This document shows positions 2,165 through 62,800 of a DNA stretch of 64,000 nucleotides, in pieces. Below the pieces are notes generated by a model. It worked only from the letters and a program-made list of their open reading frames with translations, was not told the DNA's origin and ran no database searches. The position numbers were made by a program, and so were the translations under genes. The DNA is from Botrimarina mediterranea. Its GTDB lineage: Bacteria > Planctomycetota > Planctomycetia > Pirellulales > Lacipirellulaceae. Location of the stretch: assembly GCF_007753265.1 (NCBI RefSeq), contig NZ_CP036349.1:3257363-3321362 (forward strand), read 5' to 3'. Numbering within the stretch: position 1 is the stretch's first letter; each line of letters opens with the position of its first letter.

Positions 2165-2180
2165 TGGCACGCCGCGTGCT
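2165..2180 (+). promoter_or_regulatory. Sigma-54-like -24/-12 promoter for amt
   Basis: TGGCACGCCGCGTGCT matches the sigma-54 consensus TGGCAC-N5-TTGCW with one mismatch, and the invariant GG and GC are exactly 10 nt apart. It lies about 120 bp upstream of the ammonium transporter start, a gene class commonly under sigma-54 control. The -24 box is half of a perfect 7-bp palindrome (2154-2170). G+C-rich DNA can produce such matches by chance, so this is a hypothesis. Confidence 0.45.
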
Positions 2181-2300: not shown

Positions 2301-3797
2301 ATGACGCTAGCTCTCGAGCGGCGTGGCTGGGCCGTGATGCTGTTGGCCCTGCTCGCTGCACTCGCCGGCCCCGCCGGCTACGCGATCGCGCAGGAGGAGG
2401 CCGAAGCCCCCGCCGCAACCGAAGAAGCTGTCGAAGCGCCGGCCGAGGAAGAGGCCGTGGCGGAAGAACCTGTTGAAGAGGAAGCGACCACGGAAGAGGC
2501 GCCTGAGGAAGAAGCCGTTGATCTAGGCATCGGTTACGCGTTCGACAACGCTGTTCTGTTCTTCTGCGCGGTTCTTGTGTTCTTTATGCAAGCCGGCTTC
2601 GCGATGGTCGAGGCCGGTTTCAACTCGTCGAAGAATGCTGTGAACATCATGTTCAAGAACGCTATGGACATCTGCGTCGGCGTTCTATTGTTCTTCGCCG
2701 TTGGTTTCGGACTCATGTATCCCCTCGGGTACGAGAATAATGCTGAAGCTGCGGAGCACCTGGACACCGCGCCGGGCTTTTTCTCGTTCGGCAATCTTGG
2801 CTTGAGCGGATACTCATCCGGCTTCTCGGTCGAAGTCGATTGGCTATTCCAAGCGGTGTTCGCTGCCACGGCTGCAACTATTGTTTCTGGTGCGGTTGCC
2901 GGACGTATGAAGGTCTCGGGCTACCTGATTTACAGTGCCATTCTTACCGGTCTAGTTTATCCAGTGAGCGGCTTCTGGAAATGGGGCGGCGGCTGGCTTA
3001 CACGCTTTGGTGATTACGATTCCACTGCGAATGAGTTTGCAATGGCCTTCCAAGACTTTGCTGGATCGGCAGTTGTACACGGCCTCGGCGGCTTCGCGGG
3101 CCTAGCGGGTGCGATTGTTCTCGGCCCTCGGATTGGACGCTTTGTCGAGACCAAGAGTATTCCGATGCCGGGCCACAACATTCCGCTTGCCGGCCTCGGT
3201 GTGTTCATCCTCTGGTTCGGCTGGTACGGCTTTAATCCCGGCAGCCAGCTTGCGTTTACGTCCACGGACGACATCAACGCCACAATGCACTGCGCCATTA
3301 CCACCACGCTTGCTGCTGGCGCAGGCGGCATCGTTGCTACGGTCCTTAGCTGGCTGATGTTTGGTAAGCCGGACCTGTCCATGGGTCTCAACGGTATCCT
3401 AGCAGGATTGGTCAGCATCACGGCCTGTTGTGACTGCATGACAGATTGGTGGTCTATCGTCGTAGGCGCCATCGGCGGCGTATTGGTGATCTTCGGTATC
3501 ATCATGCTCGACAAGCTAAAGATTGATGACCCCGTCGGCGCGTGGCCTGTCCACGGTCTCTGCGGCATCTGGGGCTGCTTGGCGATCGGCATCATTCCCA
3601 ACGACTACCTGAGAGATGGCGCTACGTCGTTTGCTATCCAAGCGACCGGCGCACTGTCGATCTGTGCATGGGGTTTCGGGACCATGTTTATCTTGTTCAG
3701 TGTGCTTAAGGCCGTCGGCTTGCTCCGCGTCTCGCCTGAGGAAGAGCAGCAGGGTCTGGACATCAGTGAGCACGGCATGGCCGCTTACACGCACTGA
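2301..3797 (+). CDS. amt: Ammonium transporter (Amt/MEP/Rh family)
   Basis: Conducts ammonium across the inner membrane. Residues 1-31 are a cleavable-looking signal peptide, as in many Amt proteins. Then comes an unusual acidic linker (about 32-73, almost only Glu, Ala, Pro, Val, Thr) before TM1. The core has the usual set of about 11 membrane helices. The twin pore histidines are visible in VVHGLGGFAG (about His260) and WPVHGLCGIWG (about His418). The start is supported by GAGGAAAC seven or so bases upstream. The downstream P-II gene suggests the usual gating partnership, but here 756 bp of structured spacer separate them. The third-position base use looks less G+C-biased than that of its neighbours. 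Function is secure; the role of the acidic linker is unknown. Confidence 0.95.
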   Translation: MTLALERRGWAVMLLALLAALAGPAGYAIAQEEAEAPAATEEAVEAPAEEEAVAEEPVEEEATTEEAPEEEAVDLGIGYAFDNAVLFFCAVLVFFMQAGFAMVEAGFNSSKNAVNIMFKNAMDICVGVLLFFAVGFGLMYPLGYENNAEAAEHLDTAPGFFSFGNLGLSGYSSGFSVEVDWLFQAVFAATAATIVSGAVAGRMKVSGYLIYSAILTGLVYPVSGFWKWGGGWLTRFGDYDSTANEFAMAFQDFAGSAVVHGLGGFAGLAGAIVLGPRIGRFVETKSIPMPGHNIPLAGLGVFILWFGWYGFNPGSQLAFTSTDDINATMHCAITTTLAAGAGGIVATVLSWLMFGKPDLSMGLNGILAGLVSITACCDCMTDWWSIVVGAIGGVLVIFGIIMLDKLKIDDPVGAWPVHGLCGIWGCLAIGIIPNDYLRDGATSFAIQATGALSICAWGFGTMFILFSVLKAVGLLRVSPEEEQQGLDISEHGMAAYTH

Positions 3798-3884
3798 GAT
3801 GTGAACTTACGACCGGCCACGGACTCGGCCGGGTTTATGAGCCGCCAGGATGGCGGCGAAGCTTCAAGTGAGTAATGGGAGAGC

Positions 3885-3940
3885 GTCTCGGCCCGCGGTT
3901 GGTTACCGCCTGGCCGCCGCGGGCCGAGACTTCCCGTTTT
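3885..3940 (+). terminator. Hairpin H1 with conserved 13-nt loop
   Basis: A perfect 14-bp stem (GTCTCGGCCCGCGG at 3885-3898 with its complement at 3917-3930) encloses a loop containing GTTACCGCCTGGC. A TTTT tract follows at 3937-3940 after TTCCCG. It is about 90 bp downstream of the amt stop codon, so it could terminate or attenuate amt transcription. Confidence 0.7.
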
Positions 3941-3942
3941 GT

Positions 3943-4027
3943 AGCTGTTAGCCATTAGCTGTTAGCTCAAGAGGACGGCGAAGCCGTCAGTCGCTCGCTA
4001 ACAGCTAATCGCTAACGACTAACCGCT
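3943..4027. repeat. TTAGC-word inverted repeat (family A, copy 1)
   Basis: Degenerate words GTTAGC/ATTAGC on the left (3943-3967) face CGCTAAC/AGCTAATC/ACTAACC on the right (3996-4027). The centre is a mini-hairpin GACGGCGAAGCCGTC (3974-3988). The same architecture recurs at 4904-5000. Confidence 0.75.
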
Positions 4028-4043
4028 CAACAAATGCCTCCGG

Positions 4044-4090
4044 CCCGGCGGGGTTACCGCCTGGCTCCGCCGGGTTCGGGGGTGTTTTTT
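4044..4090 (+). terminator. Hairpin H2 with conserved 13-nt loop
   Basis: Stem CCCGGCGG (4044-4051) pairs with CCGCCGGG (4067-4074) around a loop containing GTTACCGCCTGGC. A T6 run ends at 4090. It has the form of a rho-independent terminator, although no gene lies between it and H1. Confidence 0.7.
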
Positions 4091-4170
4091 AGACCTGCGT
4101 CTCCAAGGGATTAGGCGACCCCCATGATGATCGCACGGCTTCTTCGCCCCGGCGATCGACAATCCAACCA

Positions 4171-4230
4171 GCGCCCGACGGGGCGAGTGCGAGTTACCGC
4201 CTGGCTCGCGCTCGCCCCGGGCGTTTTTTT
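4171..4230 (+). terminator. Hairpin H3 with conserved 13-nt loop
   Basis: CGGGGCGAGTGCGAG (4179-4193) pairs with CTCGCGCTCGCCCCG (4205-4219) with one G-T wobble. An outer CGCCCG/CGGGCG extension is possible. The loop again contains GTTACCGCCTGGC, and T7 follows at 4224-4230. Confidence 0.75.
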
Positions 4231-4317
4231 GGAGGGTCCCGGATGGCTTTTTGGGGCACCTCCAACGCCCCCACTGATCCCCGTCCCGCTCGTTGCGAGG
4301 AATCCAAGGCAGCGGCG

Positions 4318-4412
4318 CCCTCGAAAGGCCCCGCACTAAGCCAGAAGGACGCCCCATATGGCTTGGGCGGGCTTTCCGCCTAGTCCGTCCAAGCCGGGGT
4401 GTCTTTCGAGGG
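4318..4412. repeat. 95-nt inverted repeat upstream of glnB
   Basis: CCCTCGAAAG (4318-4327) and CTTTCGAGGG (4403-4412) are perfect complements. Inner segments (GGCCCCG/CGGGG, GGACG/CGTCC, GGCTTGG/CCAAGCC) can extend the fold. It could be a structured leader element or a small mobile repeat; nothing in it encodes protein. Confidence 0.6.
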
Positions 4413-4553
4413 GAGTGGGCAGTCGGCAGTGCGCGGTGGGAAGGGATTGATTTGGGCCGTTCTGGATGAGGCCTTTCCTCGTTAAGATGAGGGGCTGTCA
4501 CAGGCGACGGGCTGCTTTCTTGCCCACTGCCGACCGCCCACTGCCCACTCCCC
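4410..4553. repeat. GGGCAGT-word inverted repeat ending at glnB ATG (family B)
   Basis: GGGGAGTGGGCAGTCGGCAG (4410 onward) faces the complementary words CCCACTGCC, GACCGCCCA and CTGCCCACTCCCC (4521-4553). The last base of the right arm touches the ATG of glnB, so no Shine-Dalgarno sequence is available and the ribosome-binding region would be inside the stem. Confidence 0.75.
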
Positions 4554-4901
4554 ATGAAACTCATCATCGCGATCGTCCAGCCCAGCAAGCTGGAGGACGT
4601 TAAGGCCGCTCTTGCCGAGGTGGAGGTTGTCCGCCTTACCATCCTCGACGTCCAGGGCTTTGGCCGGCAGAAGGGGCACACCGAGCAGTACCGCGGCACC
4701 GAGATCTCGGTCAACCTGCTGCGGAAGGTCCAGCTCCAGATCGCCGTCAACGAGCAGTTCGTCGAGCCGACGATCAGCGCCATCATCAAGGGCGGCCGCA
4801 CCGGCGACGCGGGCGAGATCGGCGACGGCAAGATCTTCGTCCTCCCGATGGACGACTGCATCCGCATCCGCACCGGCGAACGCGGCACCGAGGCGATTTA
4901 G
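4554..4901 (+). CDS. glnB: P-II nitrogen regulatory protein
   Basis: Small trimeric signalling protein that senses 2-oxoglutarate and ATP/ADP and controls targets such as Amt. The 115 residues match the family length. It begins MKLIIAIVQPSKLEDVK, and the T-loop region GFGRQKGHTEQYRG and the IIKGGRTGDAGEIGDGKIF nucleotide-binding segment are intact. The T-loop reads YRGTEISV where enterobacterial GlnB/GlnK have YRGAEYxV. The uridylylated or adenylylated Tyr51 is therefore Ile, and position 49 is Thr rather than the cyanobacterial phospho-Ser. Tyr46 is kept. This suggests control by ligand binding alone, or by another modification. Linkage to amt supports a GlnK-like role. Confidence 0.95.
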   Translation: MKLIIAIVQPSKLEDVKAALAEVEVVRLTILDVQGFGRQKGHTEQYRGTEISVNLLRKVQLQIAVNEQFVEPTISAIIKGGRTGDAGEIGDGKIFVLPMDDCIRIRTGERGTEAI

Positions 4902-4903
4902 GA

Positions 4904-5003
4904 GCGGTTAGCTCTTAGCGGTTAGCTGTTAGCCAAGTGGCGACGGCAAAGCCGCCGCTCCTTCCTTCTGCTAACGACTAATCGCTAACCGCCAACCGCT
5001 CCC
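4904..5003. repeat. TTAGC-word inverted repeat ending at ksgA start (family A, copy 2)
   Basis: GAGCGGTTAGC words on the left and GCTAACG/CTAATCG/CTAACCG/CCAACCGCTC words on the right flank the core GGCGACGGCAAAGCCGCCGC (4939-4958). It fills almost all of the glnB-ksgA spacer and stops one base before the ATG of ksgA. Confidence 0.75.
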
Positions 5004-5916: not shown

Positions 5917-5928
5917 CGGGGGAAGGAC

Positions 5929-6062
5929 CAATGACCAAGCCCCAATGACCAAGGAAGGAGGGGTCAGAGGACTGGAGTCAGGGGTCATTAATCAGGTTGA
6001 AAATTGTTAAACCGCTCGTGCGGCAGCACGCCATTGGTCATTGGGGCTTGGTCATTGGTCAT
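5929..6062. repeat. CCAATGACCAAG-word inverted repeat (family C)
   Basis: A 27-bp arm beginning GACCAATGACCAAGCCCC (from about 5930) is perfectly repeated in inverse orientation within 6030-6059. The arms themselves contain repeats of (A)ATGACCAAG. About 70 bp lie between them. It sits between ksgA and the next small gene. Confidence 0.8.
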
Positions 6063-6141
6063 TGCACCGCCCGGTCTCTTGGCGTTTCTCGATTTCCGCC
6101 GTACGCTGACGGCGCCCCCACCGCAGACGGAGACCCCCACC

Positions 6142-59846: not shown

Positions 59847-62800
59847 TCAATATAGTGGTGTCACCCAAGCGACGCGACCGTCGAGCGTAAGCCGCACGCC
59901 TTTGCTGACCCGGACATCGTCGCTTAACTCTCCCGAACTTCGGTCGATCCATCGCACGCGACTTGGTCGCTCTACGACGAAGCTAGCGTCAGAAGCGACG
60001 CCATAGCAGACGGCGTGACCGCGGTCGTCGGCAAGTCGCATCGCGGACTCGCCAGGGTTCCATGCGGGGCGCATTGCAACGAGCGCCCGCTTCAACTCCT
60101 CAGGCAGCGGGGGCACGTCGGCAAGCGAACCGCCGCCCATCAGCACGGCCCAACCGTCGCGGGGGGTGTTGCAGAATCGGTTGGCGTTGAAGAGCACGGG
60201 CTTGGTCGGGTAATAGGTGCGATACTCGCGCACGGCTCTGGCGACCGAGGCGAAGTCACCGGCTTTGACCTTCGATTGTCGCAGGTGCTGTCGCGGCGCC
60301 ATGTTCGCGCCGCCCGGCGGGGCGTATAGCGACTCGTCGCGCCCGTAGCACCAGTAGCGGATGTCGATAACATCGATGGCGTCGCGACGCTTCGGGTCGG
60401 CGAGCAGTGTGTCTTGAACGTCCTTGGCGGCGCTGATAGCGATGAAAGGCTTACGAGCGCCGGCCGCCTTCATCTGGTCGAGCCAGAACTCGGTGAATTC
60501 TAGCGGCCCGGTGTACTCATCGCTGGTGAACTGGATCACGTTCGAATTATCGACGAAGTTCTCAACGCATTTCGCTAAATAGCCACGGTGCAGTTTGCGC
60601 AACTCTGCATTGTCAGGGTCGTAGAACTGATGAGCGATGAAGATGCGTTTGTCACCGACGTAGGGCGGCGGCTCGGTCAGACCGGTCTCGTTGAGGTTGT
60701 TCGCCGGACGCCAAGGGGAATCGGCCCAGTGCGCGCCCGCCTCAAGAATGTTGTGCTGGAAATAGCACTGATGCATCAGCACGAGTCCGCGCTCGTCACA
60801 GAGCTCAGCGAAGTCTCGCAGCCGGTCCCAGTACCAAGCGTTGAACTTCGTCAGATCGTACTTGCTGAGCCCGTCCCACGCTCGGCCCTGGCCGCTGCGG
60901 GCGAAGGGTTGCTCGAAGAAGGGTGGAGCCACGCTCGCCGTCCCGCGGCGGACCAACAGGTGGTCGTCGCGGCGGCGGTCGTACCAGAGGCCGTAATGAT
61001 GGTCGTACGCAGAGATGCCGGCGGCGCGCATACCGTCAGCGACCGCGACGAGATCGTCGGTTAGTCCGACGCCGTACCGGCCGGGCGCCCAGCGCGTTAT
61101 CGACGGCCCGAATTCCACGGCGTCGTCCGGCCGGACTACCCCTCTCCACCAAGTGGGGCTCAGGGTATTTCCTGTCAGCACCTGACCATCGATCGTCAAC
61201 CAGCCATTGACGATCTTCAAATCATGCCGTTCCGGGGCCGGCCTACTGCTTAGAGTCTTGACGAGCAAATTGAAATGTAACTTTCGGTCATCATCGGGGG
61301 GTTTGACCGCCGACAGTCGCTCTTCGATCGCGTCTCTCAGTGTCTTGAGGGGACGATTCGATCGCTGGACAAAACGTCGCGTCTCCTCGAGGGTCGGACT
61401 GGTGGACTCGACGGGGTCAAGCAACAGCGGTTCCACTCGCTTCGCGGCGTCCTCGCCGATTCGCTCAGCAAGCTGTGCCTTATATAGGCTTCGCGGGCGG
61501 ACGAAGTCGCTGAGGCCTGACATCACCCCGTCACCCACGGGCTGCGCCCAGTAACCGATGGCCCAGTTCTGGGCCGTCGGCGGTGAGAAGCAGTGCAGTT
61601 GGGCGGCTTGGCATTGGAAAGCCACGCAATTGGCGGCCGACCAACCGGCGCCGGGCGGGTCGAGCCAGCGGTTGGTGAAAACGAGGTCGGCGCCGTCGAT
61701 TCGGACGTTGTCGTAGAGCACGCCGGAGGCCCAACTCTCGAGCGGCCCGCTATCGCCGTGGGCGTTGTAGGCGTAGCAGTTTACATACGCGTTTGGACCC
61801 GGCGCACAGTGACCGACTGCGAAGTCGTTTCGGCCTTCTTCTGCCCAGCAGCGTAGAAAGAGCGTTTGCTGGCCTTGCGTGAAGAACGACTGCCGGCGGT
61901 ACCCGGCGATCTCAGACACGGGCGTTAGCGCGAGGCAATCCTCGACCGTCGCGTGTCGTACCCCCTCCCGCAGCAGCACGGCTCCACCAGCAAAGCCCTC
62001 GAAGCGCATCCGGCGTAACCAGAGGTTCTCCACGTCATTGGCGATGACGCCGTGCCAGCTGTGTTCCTCGTCGAGCGGGTTGTCACTCACTGTTTCGCTA
62101 CGCAGGGTGAGGTCTTCGACGCCGATCTCACGTAGTCGATGGTTCTCCGTCACGAGCGCGACTTGAGCGCCACCGAATTTCCGGTCAAGGGCGGTCGTCA
62201 CCGGTGCGTCAAGCGTAACGCGGTCGCCGTCGATAGCCGCAACCGTCCGCTCCCAGCGAACGTCGCACCTTCCGGGTCGCCAGCCAACTCCGTCCGCCCG
62301 TGCGCCAAGGGCCTCGATCCATTCCGCGGTGGCAGGGCGCGTGACTAACACGGCGTCACCGACTTTTAGGCTGTTCGCCGGCGGCAACCTGAGGATCGTC
62401 GCTCCGACTGGTACGTAGTCGTCAAGAATGCCGATCGGCTCACCCGTCGCCAACCTATCGTGTCCAGACGGCCGAATACGAATTACCGGCCTGCGTCCTT
62501 TGCCTGTCGCAATAAGCGTCGTGCGATCGGCGCCGGAGCCACGCAAGACGATGCCGCTTGTTGCAATCTGTAGTTCACCGGCGACACGGTGTATGCCTTG
62601 CCCTAGCAGAACGGCCCCACGAAAGCCGTCTTCGTCGGGCGCCAAAGTAGCGATGTAGTCGATTGCCGCCTGGATGCGTTCGCCGTTGTCGCCTTCGATG
62701 GCGTCAACAAGAACTCGCGCCGGAGGCGAGGGGATGTCAACGTCGGCGCCGGCGTATCCGCACGATGAGAAGTCGGGGATTCGGTCGCCTCTTTCGTTAG

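Follow-up and report, generated by a model that had tools for sequence, protein, structure and literature searches.

A hairpin element with a near-invariant CCGCCU loop between amt and glnB of Botrimarina mediterranea: a candidate nitrogen-regulatory RNA

The spacer between the ammonium transporter gene amt and the P-II gene glnB of B. mediterranea contains four hairpins that belong to a structured RNA element. Its pairing is conserved at the RNA level, its loop and the element itself are conserved across the order, and it is linked to sigma-54-like sites and to amt or glnB. It lies at the end of transcripts that would probably be induced when nitrogen is scarce and is therefore a good candidate for a novel RNA in nitrogen regulation. 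On balance, we favour the reading that the hairpins form the 3' part of a sigma-54-dependent nitrogen-regulon transcript and would show their CCGCCU loops to a partner acting in trans. The window referred to below is the whole stretch of DNA that was analysed (64 kb); the features of the locus are given in Table 1.

Table 1. Features of the amt–glnB locus in window coordinates
Feature	Position	Strand	Details
sigma-54 (−24/−12) promoter-like site	2165..2179	+	TGGCAC-GCCGC-GTGC; about 120 nt before the amt start codon
amt, ammonium transporter, 498 aa	2301..3797	+	TIGR00836, 404.9 bits, above its cut-off
Hairpin H1, loop GUUACCGCCUGGC, weak T tract	3874..3938	+	Fold; orthologues in G001, G002 and G003
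Hairpin H2, loop as in H1, six T at the 3' foot	4032..4087	+	Fold
Hairpin H3, loop as in H1, followed by seven T	4170..4225 (about)	+	Fold; limits of the main stem
Hairpin E4, two-part long stem, 4-nt bulge AUAU, loop UUCCGCCU	4344..4407	+	Fold; order-wide model
sigma-70-like promoter of glnB	4460..4488	+	TTCTGG-N17-TAAGAT
glnB, P-II protein, 115 aa	4554..4901	+	NF008111, E 4.5e-34; NF007946, E 2.2e-33

The order at the locus is amt, hairpin spacer, glnB and then rsmA/ksgA. The site at 2165 is the sole forward-strand site in the window with at most one mismatch to TGGCAC-N5-TTGC; the reverse strand carries one further such site, at 61435. An rpoN gene (PF04552) is present in the genome. The glnB scores lie under the equivalog cut-offs of both models listed. 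The P-II protein reads YRGTEIS at the position at which E. coli GlnB has YRGAEYM, and the tyrosine that is uridylylated seems to be absent from it.

The 13-mer GTTACCGCCTGGC was found exactly at 3902–3914, 4053–4065 and 4193–4205 on the forward strand. A scan of the whole genome (5.87 Mb) returned these three copies only, all in the amt–glnB spacer and each at the tip of a hairpin, which bears out the three identical 13-mers reported by the first-pass annotation of the window. The stems consist of a perfect 14 bp helix in H1 (3885–3930) and of cores at 4044–4074 in H2 and 4180–4218 in H3; the folded hairpins of Table 1 exceed these cores, and folding adds a further, weak stem outside the main stem of H3. 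The description of the 13-mer as a 13-nt loop was correct as to its sequence but not as to its being fully unpaired, as RNAfold pairs GUUA with UGGC (including two U–G wobbles) and leaves CCGCC as the tip. A T tract had been described after every hairpin; it is present after H2 and H3, whereas H1 is followed only by TTCCCGTTTT, and the G001 orthologue of H1 has no T tract at all. As intrinsic terminators the window hairpins have good T tracts at H2 and H3 and weak ones at H1 and E4. The annotation had located three hairpins correctly and had missed both the fourth and most conserved one, E4, into which a conserved CCAGAAGG leads (4341–4348), and the sigma-54-like site.

In all four genomes of the genus the 13-mer lies within hairpins in the same amt–glnB spacer, with three exact copies in B. 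mediterranea and in G001, two in G003 (plus one with a single mismatch) and one in G002 (plus one variant hairpin). The exact 13-mer was present in 12 of the 59 genomes examined, these four and eight others; in the eight the copies are scattered (one per genome, except for three on separate contigs of G012), none forms part of a similar hairpin, and neither amt nor glnB was detected at these loci. The genus spacers are poorly alignable except at E4, which is their best conserved block and folds into a long hairpin (z −5.1). When paralogous hairpins of the genus are compared, 55.6% of stem positions and 1.7% of loop positions are different; between orthologous hairpins the corresponding values are 16 and 1.9%. 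The spacer of G001 (L008) also contains, at 300–460 between its H2 and H3, a tandem repeat of about 24–26 bp (TTTTACTGCCTTGCTGAGGGCTCC), within which ACTGCCTTGC resembles the hairpin loop.

Covariation was measured in two alignments. For ten H hairpins (the variant H2 of G002, with its inexact loop, was excluded from this alignment and from model R1), 95.3% of the cells are paired and 29 cells are changed on both sides, compared with 9.9 after shuffling; by a weaker measure, the number of pairs with both-side changes, the value was 9 versus 6.6 and was reached in 35 of 500 shuffles. For 75 E4 hairpins (those of 86 copies that were retained by a similarity filter), 91.5% of the cells are paired, 137 cells are changed on both sides (31.6 after shuffling) and such changes occur at 20 of the 25 pairs. 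The ratios of G–U to A–C were 191:14 and 22:1 in the stem cores and 266:38 and 42:1 across all pairs. As G–U is far in excess of A–C, the pairing is conserved in RNA of the strand running from amt to glnB, which contradicts a DNA repeat or an RNA of the opposite strand. A coding repeat was also rejected: 21 stretches between the sigma-54-like site and the hairpin share little protein similarity, and what little there is falls mostly in several frames and among close relatives, as expected from plain DNA identity.

The placement of the loop motif was counted separately. In 37 spacers of the amt–glnB type, 106 of 124 CCGCCT occurrences lie in hairpins scoring at least nine pairs, compared with 8/125 for CCGCCT elsewhere in the loci, 0/15 for the opposite strand and 60/1850 for random spacer positions. 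The presence of CCGCCT at hairpins is not due to chance. Together with the covariation, these counts agree with the earlier proposal of a structured RNA, linked to nitrogen genes and going beyond ordinary terminators, in which the stems covary around a near-invariant loop.

Model R1, built from the H hairpins, matched only 12 of 43 family genomes, so that E4 was needed to reveal the family. Model R2, built from E4, matched 34 of the 43, mostly at a single locus each, and, across the order (which we take to be Pirellulales), 153 of the 246 genomes sampled (70 of 114 genera). With the broader model R3, matches were obtained in 67 of 297 genomes of the class, 65 of them within the order (the two others are weak, and one of these is on both strands), and in four of 294 genomes of the phylum, all from the same order. 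Among 80 amt loci of a separate named collection, both planctomycete loci matched (79.8 bits, and 25.8 bits with E 0.0012) and none of the 78 non-planctomycete loci did.

The number of hairpins per locus ranges from one to at least 21. Counted as CCGCCT in hairpins, the arrays of G015 and G018 contain 21 and 15 copies, respectively, with A/C-rich linkers between them. In 148 hairpins from 77 loci the commonest tips are ACCGCCTGG (42), TCCGCCTGG (27) and TCCGCCTAG (19), and the loop core across the element is U/A-CCGCCU-R-G. Several lineages appear to have an extra hairpin directly before E4, with the loop UUGCCU (folded) or UACCGCCU (by eye).

The 86 E4 copies comprise 36 in the order amt–element–glnB, 30 before glnB with amt undetected, 11 after amt without glnB and nine with neither gene, several of the last ending at contig ends. 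The element thus adjoins amt or glnB in 77 of the 86 loci and, conversely, no model match was found in 26 amt or P-II loci without E4, the opposite of a loop scattered over random intergenic sites. In genomes with several copies, 18 of the 20 loci fetched hold an amt or P-II gene, in some cases a distant paralogue. Within the family the element accompanies one type of P-II gene, that of the window (at least 79% identical), which has the element 73–367 nt upstream in 32 of 34 genomes; 33 family genomes have both this gene and the element, eight have neither, one has the gene only and one a weak element only (Fisher 5e-7). Further P-II genes occur in the family genomes, the next best being mostly at about 50–58% identity. 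Among the nine loci with neither gene, L196, L204 and L206 have ample sequence and carry E4-type hairpins with no amt or glnB found in the roughly 2.4 kb to each side; in L196 and L206 a sigma-54-like site lies upstream of the hairpin.

A same-strand porin-like gene lies upstream in 14 of the 30 glnB loci in which amt was undetected (BBP2 was confirmed for three of the 14). The possibility that the hairpin is the terminator of the porin was rejected, as the porins before free-standing copies end at their own terminator in 9 of 14. In five loci porin, amt, element and glnB follow one another. Remnants of amt were also found: in L161 the element accompanies an amt gene with its middle apparently deleted in frame (one translated frame was read), and L198 and L173 keep the amt C-terminus, which in L198 is all that is left of the gene beside the element. 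A simple account is an ancestral order of sigma-54 site, amt, element and glnB, from which amt was later lost while the promoter and the element were spared; these cases come from often fragmented assemblies, so that assembly error is possible for single loci.

In an alignment of four free-standing loci, the single conserved block besides the hairpins was TGGCAC-N5-TTGCA, the sigma-54 consensus; sites were scored as consensus matches with at most one mismatch. Among the 30 glnB loci for which no amt was detected, 26 have such a site, with 0.58 expected, or 25 of 28 if L173 and L198 are left out; the four misses (L178, L173, L223 and L229) have at most 450 nt of contig upstream. It was found before amt in 20 of 24 loci (those of 47 with at least 500 nt upstream; opposite strand 0/24) and, counted separately, in all four genus members, each with one mismatch; it was found between amt and the element in none of the 47 loci. 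Loci lacking the element served as controls. No site was found at six of these (the amt and P-II paralogues of the genome itself and the glnB genes of G015 and G016), and three of 20 paralogous amt loci had one upstream; a same-strand site was present in four, of which L292 was discounted as its site is inside amt, and the site of L284, which was counted, is 82 nt before the amt model start and may be coding. The site therefore occurs in 50 of 58 loci with the element and in 3 of the 26 controls, which had no R3 match (Fisher 5e-11; the test omits the nine loci without detected amt or glnB, four of which have the site).

Downstream of the element, a sigma-70-like site (TTGN3-N16-18-TANNWT) lies before glnB in 29 of 66 loci, compared with 1.4 in shuffles, and the element is consequently outside the glnB leader in many loci. 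The position in the leader also fails in the window and in the 11 loci without glnB; it is possible in the loci without a counted promoter. The window promoter, with TTCTGG, is off the TTG pattern used for counting and is not among the 29; its G001 counterpart reads TTCTGG-N17-TACGAT. With a sigma-54 site upstream and a promoter of glnB's own, the element would end the sigma-54 transcript, either as part of the amt mRNA or as a free-standing RNA.

In the favoured reading, the hairpins would thus make up the conserved 3' portion of a transcript that depends on sigma-54 and is probably activated by NtrC. In loci that have amt, they would constitute the 3' untranslated region of its mRNA and frequently form a tandem array. 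After loss of amt, a free-standing RNA would be made from the sigma-54 promoter, about 150–200 nt long in the shortest cases and with the same hairpin at its end. glnB would often be transcribed from its own sigma-70 promoter downstream of the hairpins. We infer transcription under nitrogen limitation, control by NtrC, an RNA that is released or persists separately, and a trans partner, to which the RNA would offer the CCGCCU loops and the conserved lead into E4. The partner might be an RNA-binding protein, titrated by the array, or target mRNAs, with which the RNA would base-pair in the manner of an sRNA derived from a 3'UTR. An RNA-binding-protein array and a link to sRNAs (in the form of an sRNA target) had been suggested in the first-pass annotation; a protein-binding array and an sRNA are now the leading options. 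No Hfq (PF17209) was detected in any of the 19 group genomes searched, that of B. mediterranea included, which makes an Hfq-type route unlikely. As a target, the glnB start was rejected as a general rule: AGGCGG occurs near it in 7 of 66 loci (0.9 in shuffles, largest value 5), in few lineages. Besides the lack of a general target and of Hfq, several observations count against the favoured reading: T runs follow a minority of the hairpins, L196, L204 and L206 have neither gene nearby, a porin terminator in L210 also contains CCGCCT, the weaker covariation measure of the H hairpins is near its shuffled value, and the sigma-54 sites are consensus matches.

A more specific form of this reading, which we put forward tentatively, is that of a nitrogen-induced sponge in bacteria with no Hfq detected, in which the CCGCCU array in the amt 3'UTR, tunable through its copy number (one to at least 21), would titrate an RNA-binding protein or RNA, and the free-standing RNA under its sigma-54 promoter would be what survives the loss of amt. 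If this is true, synthesis of the transporter under nitrogen limitation would also reset a post-transcriptional regulon.

A less likely alternative is a purely local 3'-end element, in which the hairpins terminate and stabilize sigma-54 transcripts and insulate the glnB promoter with no function in trans, the loop being kept for termination or decay (e.g. by a loop-binding nuclease or a NusA-like factor). The position between a sigma-54-like site and a glnB promoter in many loci is consistent with this, as is the enrichment of T runs: at least four T lie just 3' of 50 of the 148 hairpins and 5' of only one. However, two thirds of the hairpins have no such run and many would therefore be poor terminators, the 15–21 tandem copies exceed what termination needs, and terminators need no fixed loop; eight of nine porin terminators beside element loci are without CCGCCT. 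The fixed loop, the arrays and the shortage of T runs led us to reject ordinary terminators as a full account. The ninth porin terminator, in L210, lies about 1 kb before E4, off the usual place of the element, and has CCGCCT in its tip (CCGCCTTGG); it is either a chance occurrence or a relative of the array.

An attenuator with regulated read-through is unlikely. Here, sigma-54 transcripts would reach glnB unless stopped, and a loop-binding factor would set the amount of glnB product. The distance of 62–474 nt between the element and glnB in 66 of the 86 loci would suit such a device, and P-II genes are frequently co-expressed with amt. Against it stand the promoters counted between the element and glnB and the 11 loci (one at a contig end) in which the element follows amt without an adjoining glnB; in G015 the array is beside amt and glnB lies 21 kb away with neither element nor sigma-54 site. 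The nitrogen-linked attenuator suggested in the first-pass annotation is not supported by these counts as an attenuator of glnB of the usual type, and on sequence grounds the element does not appear to be a classical glnB leader attenuator.

We consider titration of CsrA under nitrogen limitation very improbable. In that scheme the RNA would be bound at AAGGA in the 5' foot of E4, which we take as a match to the CsrA consensus. The motif is present in 58 of 75 E4 copies despite a varying 3' partner, and csrA, in contrast to hfq, was found in all 19 genomes (3 to 10 matches each; five in B. mediterranea). The GGA is nevertheless in the stem foot rather than in the loop, the loops carry CCGCCU, each E4 has one AAGGA, and the other array hairpins inspected have CCGCCU without an AAGGA lead. 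A repeat acting at the DNA level (a mobile element, a cruciform or a protein-binding palindrome) can practically be dismissed, as the tandem copies of G018 with their period near 108 bp are outweighed by the one-strand excess of G–U over A–C, the mostly single locus per family genome and a neighbourhood that is fixed across the order.

Known RNAs were compared with the element by sequence model and by description. No match above the gathering threshold was obtained with Rfam 15 over the window, and a search of 3700–4600 with E up to 10 gave 13 weak matches far below gathering (best E 0.017, to a microRNA model); a known Rfam RNA was therefore rejected. Among the literature matches listed, no paper describes the element, which is apparently uncatalogued.

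CsrB and RsmZ repeat one short motif within one RNA, in hairpin loops, and CrcZ is sigma-54-linked. The element resembles them in having many copies of one short motif per RNA and differs in its CCGCCU loop, as opposed to GGA or the A-rich CrcZ motif, and in being usually attached to an mRNA. The glnA and Downstream-peptide motifs are glutamine riboswitches; the element, unlike them, has no Rfam match and often lies before a glnB promoter, not in a leader. These two motifs are described in Weinberg 2010 (PMC2864571) as tied to PII and ammonium-transporter genes and sometimes tandem, features that the element shares. The same paper lists the Rhodopirellula-1 motif, a candidate RNA without an Rfam number, for Planctomycetes and Proteobacteria; the first of these listings is like the element and the second unlike it, and the two may or may not be the same RNA, the comparison having been with the table entry. 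CrcZ and Rsm sponge RNAs are discussed in PMC8395346.

Closer likenesses are offered by two sigma-54 RNAs. GlnZ, as characterized in PMC9731577, is an RpoN-dependent sRNA from the glnA 3'UTR of Enterobacteriaceae that needs Hfq. Like the element as read here, it lies in the 3'UTR of a sigma-54/NtrC nitrogen gene, between that gene and regulator genes having their own promoter, and both have a sigma-54 site upstream of the host transcript (consensus matches only in our case). GlnZ ends in a terminator hairpin; the element agrees in its 3' position, with T runs of at least four after 50 of the 148 hairpins. The element differs in that the host gene is amt, that the conserved part is hairpin loops rather than a linear seed and that there are up to at least 21 repeats; it also differs in the Hfq dependence, given the group without detected Hfq. 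NrsZ of P. aeruginosa, according to PMC8395346 and PMC9308961, is transcribed on its own from an RpoN promoter in an intergenic region next to nitrogen-regulator genes. Its functional unit is a stem-loop, and it resembles the element copies without amt; it belongs to another phylum, has other gene neighbours and has the reported motif ACAGGCAG. Our best reading by analogy is that the element would be of the GlnZ/NrsZ kind; what would be novel is the array form and the partner.

The element is thus a structured RNA that extends across the order, has no Rfam 15 match and is associated with sigma-54-like sites and with transporter and P-II genes central to nitrogen control. To our knowledge, RNA regulation in planctomycetes has been little described. 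With its single locus, its fixed loop, copy numbers that vary in nature and an element-free paralogous amt locus as a control, the element provides a testable handle on how Planctomycetes without detected Hfq might run post-transcriptional nitrogen control.

Other repeats were noted by eye near the locus. Imperfect inverted repeats on TTAGCTGTTAGC / GCTAACAGCTAA, which have the appearance of small dispersed repeats, occur in the H1–H2 interval (3945–4028) and again in the glnB–rsmA spacer (4912–5003). Repeated GACCAATGACCAAG / CATTGGTCATTGG around the rsmA 3' end (5925–6065) make a further inverted repeat.
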